NCBI GenBank assembly: GCA_003209955.1
Contig: QCOD01000011.1
Span: 1-37,853, forward strand
Direction: 5' to 3'
From: OCS116 cluster bacterium AG-430-B22
Lineage (GTDB): Bacteria > Pseudomonadota > Alphaproteobacteria > MED-G09
DNA length: 37,853 nucleotides
Shown here: piece by piece, positions 6,381-12,274 of the stretch
How the letters are laid out: each line of letters starts with the position of its first letter
Numbering within the stretch: the stretch's first letter is position 1
The notes under the pieces: generated by a model
Database searches by the model: none
Seen by the model: the letters and a program-made list of their open reading frames with translations, nothing else
What the model was told of the DNA's origin: nothing
Program-made: the position numbers and the translations under genes

Positions 6381-7667
6381 TTATTCAGCTGCATCAAACT
6401 GATCTGCTTCTGTTGAGTCACCTAGTGCAGTTGTTGAAGACTCACCACCTGCTGAAGCTTCCGAAACTAGGTCAAAATAACCTGTACCAACTTCTCTTTG
6501 ATGCCTTGTAGCTGTGTAACCATCTTTTTCTGCAGCAAATTCAGCTTGTTGAAGTTCACTATAAGCACCCATACCTCTATCTCTAAAGTCAGAGGCCAAT
6601 TGGAACATTCCATAGTTAAGTTGATGAAAACCAGCTAATGTCACAAATTGATATTTGAAACCCATTTTACCAATTTCTTCTCTAAATTTAGCTATCGTTC
6701 CAAGATCTAAATTCGCATTCCAATTGAAACTAGGTGAACAATTATAAGCTAACATTTGATCAGGGAATTCTTTTTTTACTGCATCAGAAAATGCTTTTGC
6801 TACTTCGAGGCTAGGTATTGATGTTTCCATCCATATTAAATCTGCATAAGGTGCGTAAGCAATAGCCCTCTTAACACAGTTATCAAATCCACTGTCATCT
6901 TTTAATCTATAAAAACCTTCAGGAGTTCTGTCATCATAATCTATAAATTCATGATCTCTTTCATCAGCGTCTGAAGTAATAAGTTTAGCGCTCTCTGCAT
7001 CTGTTCTTGCAACAATTAATGTTGGAACTCCACATACATCAGCAGCTAATCTTGCTGCATTTAAATTTCTCACATGTTGTTTTGTTGGAATTAAAACTTT
7101 ACCTCCCATGTGACCACATTTTTTCTCAGATGCGAGCTGGTCTTCATAGTGAACACCTGATGCGCCAGCTTCAATATATGCTCTCATAATTTCGAAACAG
7201 TTTAATGGACCTCCAAAACCAGCCTCAGCGTCTGCCACAATTGGAGCAAACCATTCTCTTTGGGCACCGCCTTCAGAATGTTCAATTTGATCGGCTCTTT
7301 GCAAAGTTCTATTGATTTTTCTTGCTAATTCTGGACCAGAGTTAGCAGGATATAAGCTTTGGTCAGGATAAGTAGAACCAGCTGTGTTATTATCTGCAGC
7401 TACCTGCCATCCAGACAGATATATGGCCTTAAGACCTGCTTTAACCATCTGCATTGCCTGGTTACCTGAAAGTGCACCTAAAGAAGAAACCTGGTCCTCT
7501 GAATGAAGTAAATCCCATAATCTGTTTGCACCTCTTGTAGCTAGAGTATATTCGATAGGAAAGGAACCCCTTAATTGTTTAACATCATCTATTGAATAAG
7601 GTCTTTCAATACCATCATAACGACCTTTTGGTGCTGATGGGACTAAATCATAGAAACTTTTTGTCAT
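6381..7667 (-). CDS. aceA: Isocitrate lyase
   Basis: Cleaves isocitrate to glyoxylate and succinate, the first step of the glyoxylate shunt. The catalytic loop [13 protein letters not shown] is intact, as are [16 protein letters not shown] and [10 protein letters not shown]. The length (428 residues) matches the short proteobacterial enzyme, and the family ending (TALxxSTE-x-QF) is followed by a four-residue extra tail, DAAE. The frame is open up to a TTG five codons earlier, but that stretch contains the ribosome-binding site GAAAGGA seven bases before the ATG at 7667, so the ATG is the start. It lies 21 bases downstream of aceB and is surely co-transcribed. Confidence 0.97.
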
Positions 7668-7688
7668 ATTTTTTCCTTTCAAAAAATG

Positions 7689-9287
7689 CTAAGAAGACAC
7701 TATTTCTTCATAAGCAGGAAGTGTCAAGAATTCTTCGCAAACTGGAGATATAGACATTTTTTCAAATATTTCAACAGCTTTTTCATATTTACCTTTTGCC
7801 CAGACATCATCGCCAATGACATTTTTTAAATTATCTATTTCACTAGTTAAAATATCTTTAAATAATTCCTCATTAACCGTTCTTCCGTCATCAAGTTTTG
7901 TTGCATGTTTCAACCATTGCCATATTTGTGCTCTTGATATTTCTGCTGTCGCTGCGTCTTCCATTAAGTTATACAAAGGTACAGCTCCACGACCCGCTAA
8001 CCACGCTTCGATATATTGAACGCCGACCTTAATACATTCACGCATTCCTTCTTCAGTTCTTTGACCTTTATGCACTTCTAGTAAATCGTCTTGAGTAATT
8101 GTTACATTATCAAGAGAAACATCTAACTGATTATCACCAGATAATTGATTATCAAAAATTTCCATTGCCACAGGAACTAATCCTGGATGTGCTACCCATG
8201 TCCCGTCATGACCATTATTAACTTCTCGTTCCTTATCATTTCTTACTTTTTCAAATGCTTTGTCATTTTCTTCATCATTATTTTTTACAGGTATTTGAGC
8301 AGCCATACCTCCCATAGCGAAGGCACCTCTTTTGTGACAAGTTTTTATTAATAGTAACGAATAGGAGTTTAAAAAAGCATCCCCCATGATAACTTGTGAG
8401 CGGTCTGGGAGAATATAGTTCGGATTTAAAGCTAATCTCTTAATATAGCTAAATATATAATCCCAACGACCACAGTTTAAGCCAACTATGTGATCTTTTA
8501 ACTCATATAATATCTCATCCATTTGAAATGCTGCAGGTAATGTCTCAATTAAAATTGTTGCTTTACATGTGCCATTTTCAATACCTAGTTTTTCCTGAGC
8601 ATATACAAACACTTCATTCCATAATCTTGCTTCTAGATATGTTTCCATTTTTGGTAGATAGAAATAAGGACCTGTTCCATTCTCTTTTAATTTTTCATGA
8701 TTATGAAAAAGGTAAACAGCAAAATCAAATATACCACCTGAAATTCTTACGCCATCAATTTCAATATGAGCTTCCTCAAGATGCCAACCCCTTGGTCTGA
8801 CAATTAATACAGCAGGATCTGGATTCAATTTATATTCTTTTCCATTATTTGGATCGAGAAAATCAATTTGACCTCTCCAACGATCATATAGATTAATTTG
8901 GCCATTAATAACATTATTCCAAGTTGGCGACATAGAGTCTTCAAAATCAGTCATAAAGGTCTTTGCGCCTGAATTAAGAGCGTTAATAACCATTTTACGA
9001 TCAACTGGTCCTGTAATTTCTACTCTTCTATCCTGTAAATCCTTTGGTATTGGCGCTACTTTCCAATCTGAATTTCTTACTTCCTCAGTTTCAGAAGGAA
9101 AATCAGGTAATTTTCCAGCATCATATTCTTTTTGTTTTTCATCTCTTATTTTGAGTAATTCTTTTCTTTTGTGACCAAAGTTTTTTTCTAAATCATAAAT
9201 AAATTCAAGGCATTCTTCTGTAAGAACTTTTTCAATTCCAGTTACGCTGGTATCAAGAATTTCCATGCCTTCAGGTGTATTAATCAT
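7689..9287 (-). CDS. aceB: Malate synthase A
   Basis: Condenses glyoxylate with acetyl-CoA to malate, the second step of the glyoxylate shunt. The 532-residue length is that of the A isoform, not the longer G isoform. Diagnostic blocks are TFMTDFEDSMSPTWNNVI, VRPRGWHLEEAH (catalytic Arg region), ATILIETLPAAFQMDEI, GLNCGRWDYIFS, GMAAQIPVKNN and DGTWVAHPGLV. AAGGAAAA lies seven bases before the ATG. It heads a minus-strand operon with aceA and three further genes. The promoter region is shared with divergent hisS and holds a perfect inverted repeat. Confidence 0.97.
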   Translation of the reverse strand: MINTPEGMEILDTSVTGIEKVLTEECLEFIYDLEKNFGHKRKELLKIRDEKQKEYDAGKLPDFPSETEEVRNSDWKVAPIPKDLQDRRVEITGPVDRKMVINALNSGAKTFMTDFEDSMSPTWNNVINGQINLYDRWRGQIDFLDPNNGKEYKLNPDPAVLIVRPRGWHLEEAHIEIDGVRISGGIFDFAVYLFHNHEKLKENGTGPYFYLPKMETYLEARLWNEVFVYAQEKLGIENGTCKATILIETLPAAFQMDEILYELKDHIVGLNCGRWDYIFSYIKRLALNPNYILPDRSQVIMGDAFLNSYSLLLIKTCHKRGAFAMGGMAAQIPVKNNDEENDKAFEKVRNDKEREVNNGHDGTWVAHPGLVPVAMEIFDNQLSGDNQLDVSLDNVTITQDDLLEVHKGQRTEEGMRECIKVGVQYIEAWLAGRGAVPLYNLMEDAATAEISRAQIWQWLKHATKLDDGRTVNEELFKDILTSEIDNLKNVIGDDVWAKGKYEKAVEIFEKMSISPVCEEFLTLPAYEEIVSS

Positions 9288-9347: not shown

Positions 9348-9375
9348 TAATGAATCTATTTATAAAGGTATAGTG

Positions 9376-10863
9376 ATGACTTCAGATAATAAAAAAAAGA
9401 TAAAAGCTGAACGTCCTAGAGGATTTGAAGATCTTTCTGGAGAAGATCTTTTATTACTAGAAAAAATCACATCGACAATTGAGAAAACATATAAATTTTA
9501 TGGATTTGAAAAATTAGAAACTAGTATTGTTGAACTTTCAAATGTCATTGGCTCTTTTTTACCTGATCAGGATAGACCTAATGAAGGTGTTTTTTCTTTG
9601 GAGGATGATGATAGCAGATGGCTATCACTAAGGTATGATTTAACATCTGGTTTAGCTCGCTATGTGGCTGAAAATTATGATTCCTTGCCTAAACCTTATA
9701 GAAGATATCAATCTGGTTGGGTTTTTAGAAATGAAAAACCAGGTCCAGGTAGATTCCGTCAATTCATGCAAGTGGATGCTGATACAGTAGGAAGCAAAAA
9801 CCCATTAGCAGATGCTGAAATGTGCATGATGTTTTCAGATGTTTTTGAAAATATAGGAATTGAAAGAAATGACTATTTAATAAGATTGAATAATAGAAAC
9901 TTGCTGGACGCTCTATTAGATCAACTTGGATTAAATTCTATAAATGACTCTGATCAGTATTTAACTGTTATGCGTTCAATAGATAAACTTGATAGATTAG
10001 GCTTTTCTGCTGTTACAGAGCTACTTGGTAAGGGCAGAAAGGATAAATCAGGCGATTTCACAAAAGGCGCAGAGCTTAAGACTGAACAAATAGATAAAAT
10101 AATTAATTTCTTAAAGCAGGGCGATAAGAGTCAAAAGACAGATAGAAAATCTGCATTAGAAAAATTAGAAAAGGATTTTTGTGATAGTGATAAATTCTCT
10201 GATGCAGTTATTGAGCTATTGGCTATTTCAGATATCTTAGATGGCGCAGGGTACAATGAAGATAGAGTTGCTATAGACCCATCAGTAGTAAGAGGATTAG
10301 GATATTACACAGGGCCAGTTTATGAAGCAGATCTTATTTTCCCAAAAAATAATGATTTACAAAACTTTGGTGCTGTTGGAGGGGGAGGTCGTTACGACAG
10401 TCTCGTAGAAAGACTGAAAGGAGTAAAAGTTCCAGCTACAGGAATTTCAATAGGTGTGAGTAGATTAATGACAGCCCTAAAACTTTTGGATCAAAAAGTT
10501 AATAACAAAAGTGATATTGATGTTGTTGTTTTGTTAATGAACAAAGATGATCAAGTTTATTATTTTAACTTAGCATCAAAACTTAGAGATGAAGGTTTAT
10601 TAGCAGATTTATATGTTGGCGATGGAAGTATGAAAGCCCAATTAAAATATGCTGATAAAAGAAATGCCAAAATTGCTTTAATTATAGGTGATGATGAAAT
10701 AGAGAATAACACCGTAACAATAAAAGATTTAAATAAAGGCTCAGAATTATCTAAAGATATTAGTAAAAATGAAGAATGGCGATCAAACAAAGAAACTCAA
10801 GTGAATGTCCCTCAATCTGAAATGATTAAGATGATAAAATCTATTTTATCTAAAAGTTCATAA
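9376..10863 (+). CDS. hisS: Histidyl-tRNA synthetase (alphaproteobacterial divergent type)
   Basis: Charges tRNA-His with histidine. Class II features are present: LSLRYDLTSGLARYVAEN, motif 2 around RRYQSGWVFRNEKPGPGRFRQFMQVDADTVG (9700-9790), the histidine-binding loop VVRGLGYYTGPVYEAD, and motif 3 GAVGGGGRYDSLV, followed by an anticodon-binding domain. The FLPDQDRPNEGVF block and the motif-2 loop are of the type I associate with Caulobacterales, Rhodobacterales and Rhizobiales rather than E. coli. At 495 residues it is longer than E. coli HisS. The frame includes GTG immediately before ATG; AAAGG at 9364-9368 is seven bases from the ATG and four from the GTG, so the ATG is chosen. It lies directly upstream of hisZ, its enzymatically inactive paralogue. 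Confidence 0.95.
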   Translation: MTSDNKKKIKAERPRGFEDLSGEDLLLLEKITSTIEKTYKFYGFEKLETSIVELSNVIGSFLPDQDRPNEGVFSLEDDDSRWLSLRYDLTSGLARYVAENYDSLPKPYRRYQSGWVFRNEKPGPGRFRQFMQVDADTVGSKNPLADAEMCMMFSDVFENIGIERNDYLIRLNNRNLLDALLDQLGLNSINDSDQYLTVMRSIDKLDRLGFSAVTELLGKGRKDKSGDFTKGAELKTEQIDKIINFLKQGDKSQKTDRKSALEKLEKDFCDSDKFSDAVIELLAISDILDGAGYNEDRVAIDPSVVRGLGYYTGPVYEADLIFPKNNDLQNFGAVGGGGRYDSLVERLKGVKVPATGISIGVSRLMTALKLLDQKVNNKSDIDVVVLLMNKDDQVYYFNLASKLRDEGLLADLYVGDGSMKAQLKYADKRNAKIALIIGDDEIENNTVTIKDLNKGSELSKDISKNEEWRSNKETQVNVPQSEMIKMIKSILSKSS

Positions 10864-10879
10864 AATATGAAATAAAATA

Positions 10880-10912
10880 TTGATTTAATAAAATATTCAT
10901 ATTATATGAATA
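10880..10912. promoter_or_regulatory. Candidate hisZ promoter/operator: perfect 8-bp inverted repeat before the start codon
   Basis: TATTCATA at 10894-10901 and TATGAATA at 10905-10912 form a perfect inverted repeat around the 3-base spacer TTA, ending six bases before the hisZ ATG. A further half-site TATGAA lies at 10866-10871. TTGATT at 10880-10885 and TATATG at 10903-10908 have a 17-base spacer and could be -35 and -10 elements, which would put the transcript start within a few bases of the ATG (a nearly leaderless message). No Shine-Dalgarno is visible. The repeat would then cover the -10 element. There is no GC stem or T-run, so it is not a hisS terminator. The short, high-symmetry site suits a small Cro-like dimer, which the hisZ product itself appears to carry. 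Confidence 0.5.
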
Positions 10913-10918
10913 ATTCTT

Positions 10919-12274
10919 ATGAATAAGTCTGTAAATAACATAATTAATGCACTTGGAGGAACTACCAAACTAGCGAATTTACTTGGAGTTAATCCATCTG
11001 CTGTCTCTAATTATAGGCAAAAAGGTTTTCCTGCTAGATTGCATCTTAAAATCATTGCTTTATGTGAAGAATTTTCTATACCGATTGATAATGATTTCAT
11101 TGATAAATCTAAAATACCTCTCAAAGTTATAAAATCTAATTCCAATGAATTTCTTACCCATAAGTCAAATTCAATTATGTCATCGCTTTCCTCAGATGGA
11201 TATCAATTAATTGATCCACCTATATTGGTTCCTGCAGATAAAGTTATCGATAGGCTTGGTGAAACTATTGTTGATAGGTTGTTTATCTTTTCTCAAAAAG
11301 ATGGAATTAGATTATGCTTACGGCCTGATTTAACGATACCTACTTGTCTCTATTATTTGGATCAAGGTTTTGGTGGAGAAAAAAAACTATACTCATACTT
11401 TGGTAAAGTATTTCAATTTTACGATGAAGAAGAAAATGAACCTACTGAATTTACCCAAACAGGAATTGAGTCTATTGGTGATCAAGATTTGCTAAATGCT
11501 GATGTTGAAGTTTTTGTTAAAATTTATAATGCTTTAAAGAAAGAGGGCATAAGTAATTTTAAAACATACTTTGGAGATGTTTCACTATTTCAAGAATTTA
11601 TAAATGTTTTGGACATTCCTGAATTATGGAAAAAAAGCTTATTAGAAAAGTTCTGGAATGAAGATGAATTTAAAATTTTATTAGATGAGATAAGTAAAAA
11701 AAATATCAATAACGATAAATTTGCTGAAAGAGTATACTCCCTCGATATAGAGTCCGCATTAGAGTTGGTGAGAGGCACTATTAATTCATCAGATGGAAGT
11801 TTTTTTGCGGGACGAAGTTTAGAGGAAATAACAGATCGGTTAAGGAAAAAAGGTGAGTCATATTCTCTTAAGCCCCTCTCAGATTCAACAAAGAAATTAA
11901 TAACTGAATTTCTCTCAATAAAAGATACACCTTCATTGGCAATTAGTGGATTAAGAAAATTATGTAAATCTCTAGATGAATCATTATTAAGTAAGATTGA
12001 TGAAGCAGAGAAAAGATTTGAAATAATCGACAGTAATGGAGTTGATTTTAATAATGCTATTTTTGGTGCAGAAAAGGGTCGAGATGTAGAATATTACTCT
12101 GGTTTTTTATATGATTTTGCTTGGAGTAATAATAATGAGAGCATCTATATTGGGGGAGGCGGAAGATATGATGACTTAATAAAGTTATTAGGGTCAGAAA
12201 ATAGAATTCCAGCAGTTGGTGCAGCCCTAAATCTAAAAAAAGTTGAACGGATTTCACAAATAGAGAGTTTATAA
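10919..12274 (+). CDS. hisZ: ATP phosphoribosyltransferase regulatory subunit HisZ with N-terminal Cro-like HTH domain
   Basis: HisZ is a catalytically dead HisRS paralogue that binds short-form HisG and is needed for its activity and histidine feedback. The HisZ part runs from about residue 75 to 451: LCLRPDLTIPTCLYYL, YFGKVFQFY, EFTQTGIESIGDQD, GRDVEYYSGFLYDF and IGGGGRYDDLI. Residues 4-48 form an extra domain, INALGGTTKLANLLGVNPSA then VSNYRQKGFPARLHLKI. It reads as a compact helix-turn-helix like P22 Cro/YdaS or the small 'carph-isopro' domain, with helix 2 at about 15-23 and recognition helix at about 25-35. A polar linker follows (50-74). The frame is continuous, and the next in-frame ATG (residue 87) lies inside the HisZ fold with no ribosome-binding site, so the fusion looks real. 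The last base of its stop codon is the first base of the hisG start. DNA binding is inferred, not shown. Confidence 0.9.
   Translation: MNKSVNNIINALGGTTKLANLLGVNPSAVSNYRQKGFPARLHLKIIALCEEFSIPIDNDFIDKSKIPLKVIKSNSNEFLTHKSNSIMSSLSSDGYQLIDPPILVPADKVIDRLGETIVDRLFIFSQKDGIRLCLRPDLTIPTCLYYLDQGFGGEKKLYSYFGKVFQFYDEEENEPTEFTQTGIESIGDQDLLNADVEVFVKIYNALKKEGISNFKTYFGDVSLFQEFINVLDIPELWKKSLLEKFWNEDEFKILLDEISKKNINNDKFAERVYSLDIESALELVRGTINSSDGSFFAGRSLEEITDRLRKKGESYSLKPLSDSTKKLITEFLSIKDTPSLAISGLRKLCKSLDESLLSKIDEAEKRFEIIDSNGVDFNNAIFGAEKGRDVEYYSGFLYDFAWSNNNESIYIGGGGRYDDLIKLLGSENRIPAVGAALNLKKVERISQIESL

Follow-up and report, generated by a model that had tools for sequence, protein, structure and literature searches.

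Results

Gene order at the hisZ-hisG locus

The window, by which we mean the whole stretch of 37,853 nucleotides that was analysed, is contig 11 of an incomplete genome (79.6% complete, 1.24 Mb) from a marine alphaproteobacterium of the PS1/OCS116 clade. The records of its relatives in the same genus carry the titles of both OCS116 cluster and PS1 clade bacteria. Three genes, hisS, HTH-hisZ and hisG, follow one another in this order on the + strand (Table 1). The start of hisG overlaps the hisZ stop in each of the 15 PS1 genomes with a complete hisZ, which indicates translational coupling; sites that control hisZ should therefore control both genes. On the other side of hisS, and divergent from it, lie an isocitrate lyase-like and a malate synthase-like gene (6381-9287, recognized by eye).

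Table 1. Features of the hisS-hisZ-hisG region, in positions of the window
Feature	Position	Strand	Remarks
hisS, histidyl-tRNA synthetase	9373..10863	+	GTG start; anticodon-binding domain (PF03129 match); true synthetase, upstream of HTH-hisZ
Operator 1, TTCATAAAATATGAA	10857..10871		Complete palindrome; left arm overlaps the last hisS codons and the stop
Putative -35, TTGATT	10880..10885	+	TTGAT conserved here in g1, g2 and g3, apart from one substitution in a single genome; promoter role proposed
Operator 2, TATTCATATTATATGAATA	10894..10912		9-bp arms without mismatch, 1 base between them; six bases separate it from the ATG
Putative -10, TATATG	10903..10908	+	Inside operator 2; 17 nt after TTGATT, 10 nt before the ATG; role proposed
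HTH-hisZ gene, 451 aa	10919..12274	+	Single open frame, ATG 10919 to stop 12274
Cro-type/carph-isopro-like HTH domain, residues 3-51	10925..11071	+	Recognition helix about residues 26-35, PSAVSNYRQK
Polar linker, residues 52-80	11072..11158	+	Residues 63-78 predicted disordered
HisZ (HisRS-like) domain, PRK12295 type	11159..12271	+	Profile and fold matches
hisG, 323 aa	12274..13245	+	PF01634 only (catalytic domain), without HisG_C (short form)

HisZ is fused to a predicted Cro-like domain

A first-pass annotation, made from the sequence alone, had read the hisZ frame as a Cro-like helix-turn-helix (HTH) followed by a linker and HisZ. This was confirmed by profile matches and by AlphaFold2. The structure prediction that it had proposed for the N-terminus returned helices at residues 3-11, 15-22, 26-35 and 39-51, ahead of the disordered part of the linker and a HisRS-like body. 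The predicted fold of the HTH alone was closest to Xfaso 1 Cro (3bd1, TM 0.70), then to N15 Cro on operator DNA, and a profile built from related HTHs matched 3bd1 with an E-value of 2e-8. The isolated N-terminus (residues 1-79) marginally matched the NCBIfam model NF046037 (carph-isopro; 39.0 bits for a cut-off of 38), while the whole protein (35.1) and the relatives in genus g2 scored under the curated cut-off. We take the name of this model to refer to the enzymes on which the domain has been noted, those of carbamoyl-phosphate and isopropylmalate. Matches of the N-terminus to Pfam YdaS and P22_Cro (E 8e-6 and 4e-5) were both under the Pfam curated cut-offs. The N-terminal domain is thus predicted to have a Cro/lambda-repressor-like helical fold with a recognition helix. 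No second copy of this HTH was found in the window's genome (79.6% complete).

The body of the protein matched Pfam tRNA-synt_His with 91.8 bits (cut-off 25), and its best fold match was 3od1, a HisZ-type protein. It has no anticodon-binding domain (no PF03129 match), and a separate, true hisS is present. HTH-HisZ missed the equivalog cut-offs of NCBIfam, scoring 278.7 with the best model, NF008953 (cut-off 384), and 121 with TIGR00443 (cut-off 272). We read this as sequence divergence rather than as membership of a rival family, because the hisS model scored even lower (98.7). Q180, E184, Y393 and GGRYD (414-418), which from knowledge of HisRS we take to be the histidine-pocket motifs, were invariant in the HisZ alignment (A2).

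The fusion is conserved across genera and recurs in another order

The search for other HisZ proteins with this extension, also suggested by the first-pass annotation, found the fusion in a second order as well as in the PS1 clade. Eighteen PS1-clade genomes were examined: 15 had a complete hisZ, two had no detected hisZ and in one the contig was truncated. All 15 complete genes encoded the fusion, in three genera (g1, g2 and g3) that differ at about half of the HisZ residues, and down to about 50% identity. In the second order (code f19), 24 of 28 genomes gave a HisZ match, and every match that reached the N-terminus included the HTH. An assembly or sequencing artefact is ruled out by the presence of the fusion in 15 genomes of the clade and in another order. 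In 73 open frames for unfused HisZ, taken from the closest alphaproteobacterial relatives, a profile of the HTH had no match. The HTH codons of g1 and g3 differ by 11, 8 and 27 substitutions at positions 1, 2 and 3, a pattern that points to purifying selection. This third-position bias in a conserved coding region also ruled out translation from a later start codon.

HisZ proteins with a distinct HTH were found in the Candidatus Phaeomarinobacter family (L022, L153, L154, L278-L281 and L083). Upstream of the genes for these proteins, TGTCCYG half-sites occurred 12 times in 0.57 kb as against 7 times in 17 kb elsewhere, a suggestive enrichment in a sample of four close relatives. TGTCCTG half-sites are present in this set, and one locus (L281) has a palindrome with 14-bp arms. 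A tree grouped, weakly (92/83), the PS1 and second-order proteins and placed the Phaeomarinobacter-type fusion apart; an AU test did not reject the grouping of the latter with PS1 (p 0.21). A single fusion event may underlie all HTH-HisZ proteins, or HisZ may perhaps have gained an HTH twice.

Two operators flank and overlap a putative hisZ promoter

The first-pass annotation had reported a perfect inverted repeat just before the hisZ start and a lone half-site, TATGAA, at 10866. The repeat is indeed perfect, though its arms had been described as 8 bp around three bases. TATGAA is present, though it proved to be the right arm of a complete palindrome, operator 1. The two operators, the arms of which are almost wholly A+T, are 39 bp apart from centre to centre, and this spacing is kept across the PS1 genomes of three genera; one of these genomes has a single mismatch in operator 1. 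In an alignment of the three genera (A4), the operators, the intervening TTGAT and the start region were conserved, while the other intergenic DNA varied.

TTGATT, 17 bases and TATATG plausibly fit a sigma-70 promoter whose -10 element lies in operator 2, and the spacing of the two elements is conserved in g1, g2 and g3. The earlier proposal of a -10 inside the palindrome remains plausible, although a consensus promoter scan did not report it. TATATG is a non-consensus -10. From this arrangement we infer a transcript start near the ATG, and so a near-leaderless hisZ mRNA. Such a start would also account for the missing Shine-Dalgarno sequence, on which we agree with the first-pass annotation.

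The site accompanies the HTH rather than the pathway

ATTCATA-N3-TATGAA preceded hisZ in every one of the 15 PS1 genomes with a complete gene and occurred at two other places across the 18 genomes, in which its reversed control had no match. The exact core, TTCATA-N3-TATGAA, occurred in the window's genome (79.6% complete) at operators 1 and 2 only and before no other gene, the other his genes included; a related genome (G005) had one further exact core site. The idea put forward earlier, that the protein represses hisZ-hisG and perhaps other his genes, gained support from the comparison as regards control of the coupled pair, the operators standing at the protein's own promoter, and gained none as regards other his genes. 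A his regulon is ruled out at the level of exact matches, the operator being nearly private to the hisZ promoter. With one mismatch allowed, site numbers in the window's genus were similar to those of the reversed control, and in g2 and g3 they were about twice the control (15-18 versus 7-9). HTH-HisZ may possibly have a few extra weak targets in these two genera.

A relaxed form of the site, TTCAYN5RTGAA, lay within 250 bp upstream of 15/15 PS1 and 14/18 second-order fused hisZ genes, and of none of the 73 unfused ones. The unfused set is higher in G+C, which lowers the chance rate of this motif; the rate in the fused loci themselves was also low (no match in 62 kb of other sequence from the PS1 loci, one in 70 kb of the f19 loci). 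The motif was first noticed in PS1 and then sought in the other groups. In the second order the promoter geometry differs from that of PS1: most loci show a single clear exact site, the site lies some 105-140 nt upstream of the probable start codon, and the four loci without a matching site had near-matches or, in one, Ns.

The HTH subfamily of HTH-HisZ, with its invariant S-N-Y in the recognition helix, was also found fused to CoaBC in a third order, where 87 of 101 genomes gave a match. All 29 coaBC upstream regions had at least two TTCAC/GTGAA half-sites, and paired sites numbered 21 in 4.1 kb upstream as against none in 124 kb elsewhere; the half-site pattern was written after viewing these regions, so that the enrichment is descriptive and not a blind test. 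In the HTH-CoaBC loci (L282-L311, order of G228) we noted TTCACA..TGTGAA palindromes before coaBC that are near-identical to the hisZ operators. HTH-CoaBC is likely a self-regulated coenzyme A enzyme. Since the site is present at fused hisZ and at HTH-coaBC and absent at unfused hisZ, it tracks the HTH and not the pathway. The clades were closely sampled and the counts are not numbers of independent events; the three genera of PS1 nevertheless agree with several genera of the second order and, in a third order, with another enzyme.

Discussion

A candidate autorepressor of the hisZ-hisG pair

The comparative evidence supports binding of HTH-HisZ at its own promoter, and very probably this protein itself controls its gene, with no separate regulator involved, most likely as an autorepressor. 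We hold with good confidence that it is a single-target trigger enzyme, the HTH dimers of which sit on the two operators and repress the hisZ-hisG promoter. The DNA itself shows the fusion and its conservation, two operators, their 39-bp spacing and near-uniqueness, and their co-occurrence with the HTH subfamily on another enzyme. Beyond this we infer binding by HTH-HisZ itself, repression over activation, and the signal; the comparison bears little on the sign of the control and not at all on the signal. In short-form ATP-PRT, a hetero-octamer, four HisZ subunits form the core, and the histidine pocket is on HisZ (PMC9734150). The HisZ part of the fusion would likewise assemble with HisG and bind histidine, and the Cro-type HTH, as dimers, would occupy the two operators, which stand on either side of the putative -35 and take in the putative -10 of this internal promoter. 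Occupancy would block the promoter, so that the sensor subunit would repress its own two-gene operon. We favour repression with histidine in the HisZ pocket, or with HisZ in excess of HisG or unengaged with it, because the HisZ core tetramer could supply an HTH dimer for each of the two sites.

We considered the possibility that the palindromes are bound by a free-standing regulator, the HTH of HisZ being a relic or a means of protein contact. The relationship of this HTH subfamily to a domain on membrane proteins, in which DNA binding is putative, would allow this. Yet none of the 73 unfused hisZ genes has the site, whereas fused hisZ has it in two orders. A coaBC that carries this HTH has almost the same site in front of it, which an outside regulator specific for his genes would not predict, and the window's genome (79.6% complete) yielded no other such HTH. 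We therefore regard a separate regulator as improbable. Slightly less improbable is activation by HTH-HisZ from the operators, alone or combined with repression. Operator 1 lies some 50 bp ahead of the presumed start of the transcript, with operator 2 over the -10, and two conserved sites at a fixed spacing surround a conserved -35. Phage Cro/CI switches likewise have paired sites around promoter elements. Against activation stand the overlap of operator 2 with the presumed -10 and the mostly single exact site of the second order.

The palindromes are inverted repeats between two genes and might instead work at the RNA level, by terminating hisS transcription or by attenuating the his genes; RNA attenuators govern his operons in other Proteobacteria (PMC9413887). 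Yet scans gave neither a terminator-like site nor an Rfam match above noise, the arms hold hardly any G or C, operator 2 lies so close to the ATG that there is no room for a leader peptide, and the sequence itself, beyond its pairing, is kept across orders. This makes an action in RNA very improbable indeed.

Relation to known systems

Autorepression by HTH-HisZ would place it beside the trigger enzymes BirA, PutA and NadR, in each of which a metabolic protein with a DNA-binding domain controls genes of its own pathway; like PutA, it would have a single target (PMC8249747). By its sequence it has the make-up of such an enzyme, a predicted DNA-binding domain joined to a metabolic protein. It differs from these three in that HisZ has no catalytic role but regulates and senses histidine, its HTH is of Cro type and the sole evident target is its own promoter. 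The five E. coli cases given in PMC8249747 do not include HTH-HisZ. A search of the open-access literature, which leaves out most subscription papers, found nothing on HTH-HisZ or on the carph-isopro domain; the first-pass annotation knew of no described fusion either. The HTH shares its profile, fold and a conserved recognition-helix region with phage Cro proteins (Xfaso 1 Cro, 3bd1; N15 Cro, 6on0; P22 Cro, 1rzs), whereas it is fused to an enzyme subunit and stands at a chromosomal biosynthetic promoter. HisZ of L. lactis (1z7m) and P. arcticus (5m8h) shares the HisRS-like fold, the profile and an adjacent hisG without regulatory domain, and lacks the roughly 80 extra N-terminal residues with the HTH. 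To our knowledge, these solved HisZ proteins are not reported to bind DNA. HisR, the Gram-positive histidine repressor of the TrpR family, also controls his genes at the DNA level, in contrast as a separate regulator of unrelated fold and lineage (PMC9413887).

Profile scans found the carph-isopro domain or a relative on CoaBC, ArgB, PyrB, CarA, GlmU, PdhA, PheA, NAD(P)HX repair enzymes, Ccr (crotonyl-CoA carboxylase/reductase) and many membrane proteins. The N-terminal fusions include ArgB (L155-L158, L160), PyrB (L161), CarA (L166, L170), GlmU (L162), PdhA (L159), NAD(P)HX repair (L140, L167, L199), Ccr (L144) and PheA (L203, with a different XRE HTH). Some of the fused genes have palindromes at their starts, for example TTGCGATTAACGCAA before pyrB (L161) and TTACTCAATTCGTAA before argB (L155). 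A close carph-isopro domain (FGGIRPMA..KL) is N-terminal on many proteins of Alphaproteobacteria that probably have a membrane segment (L116-L139, L141-L143, L145), and a Cro-like HTH stands at the N-terminus of proteins that by eye resemble TorD-type chaperones (L183, L187-L189, L191, L194, L202, L204).

We lean towards the view that this reflects an undescribed alphaproteobacterial style of regulation, in which small Cro/XRE-type HTHs have repeatedly been fused to biosynthetic enzymes, each a private autoregulator through its own palindrome, in place of separate transcription factors. If HTH-HisZ does control its own pair, the histidine sensor of the first enzyme of the pathway doubles as its transcription factor, and one molecule carries the feedback both on activity and on expression. 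This would explain how amino-acid synthesis is controlled in streamlined marine bacteria with few regulators. It would also open a recurrent route, the capture of a phage-type HTH by an enzyme together with its operator, to testing with about 60 bp of DNA and one protein.
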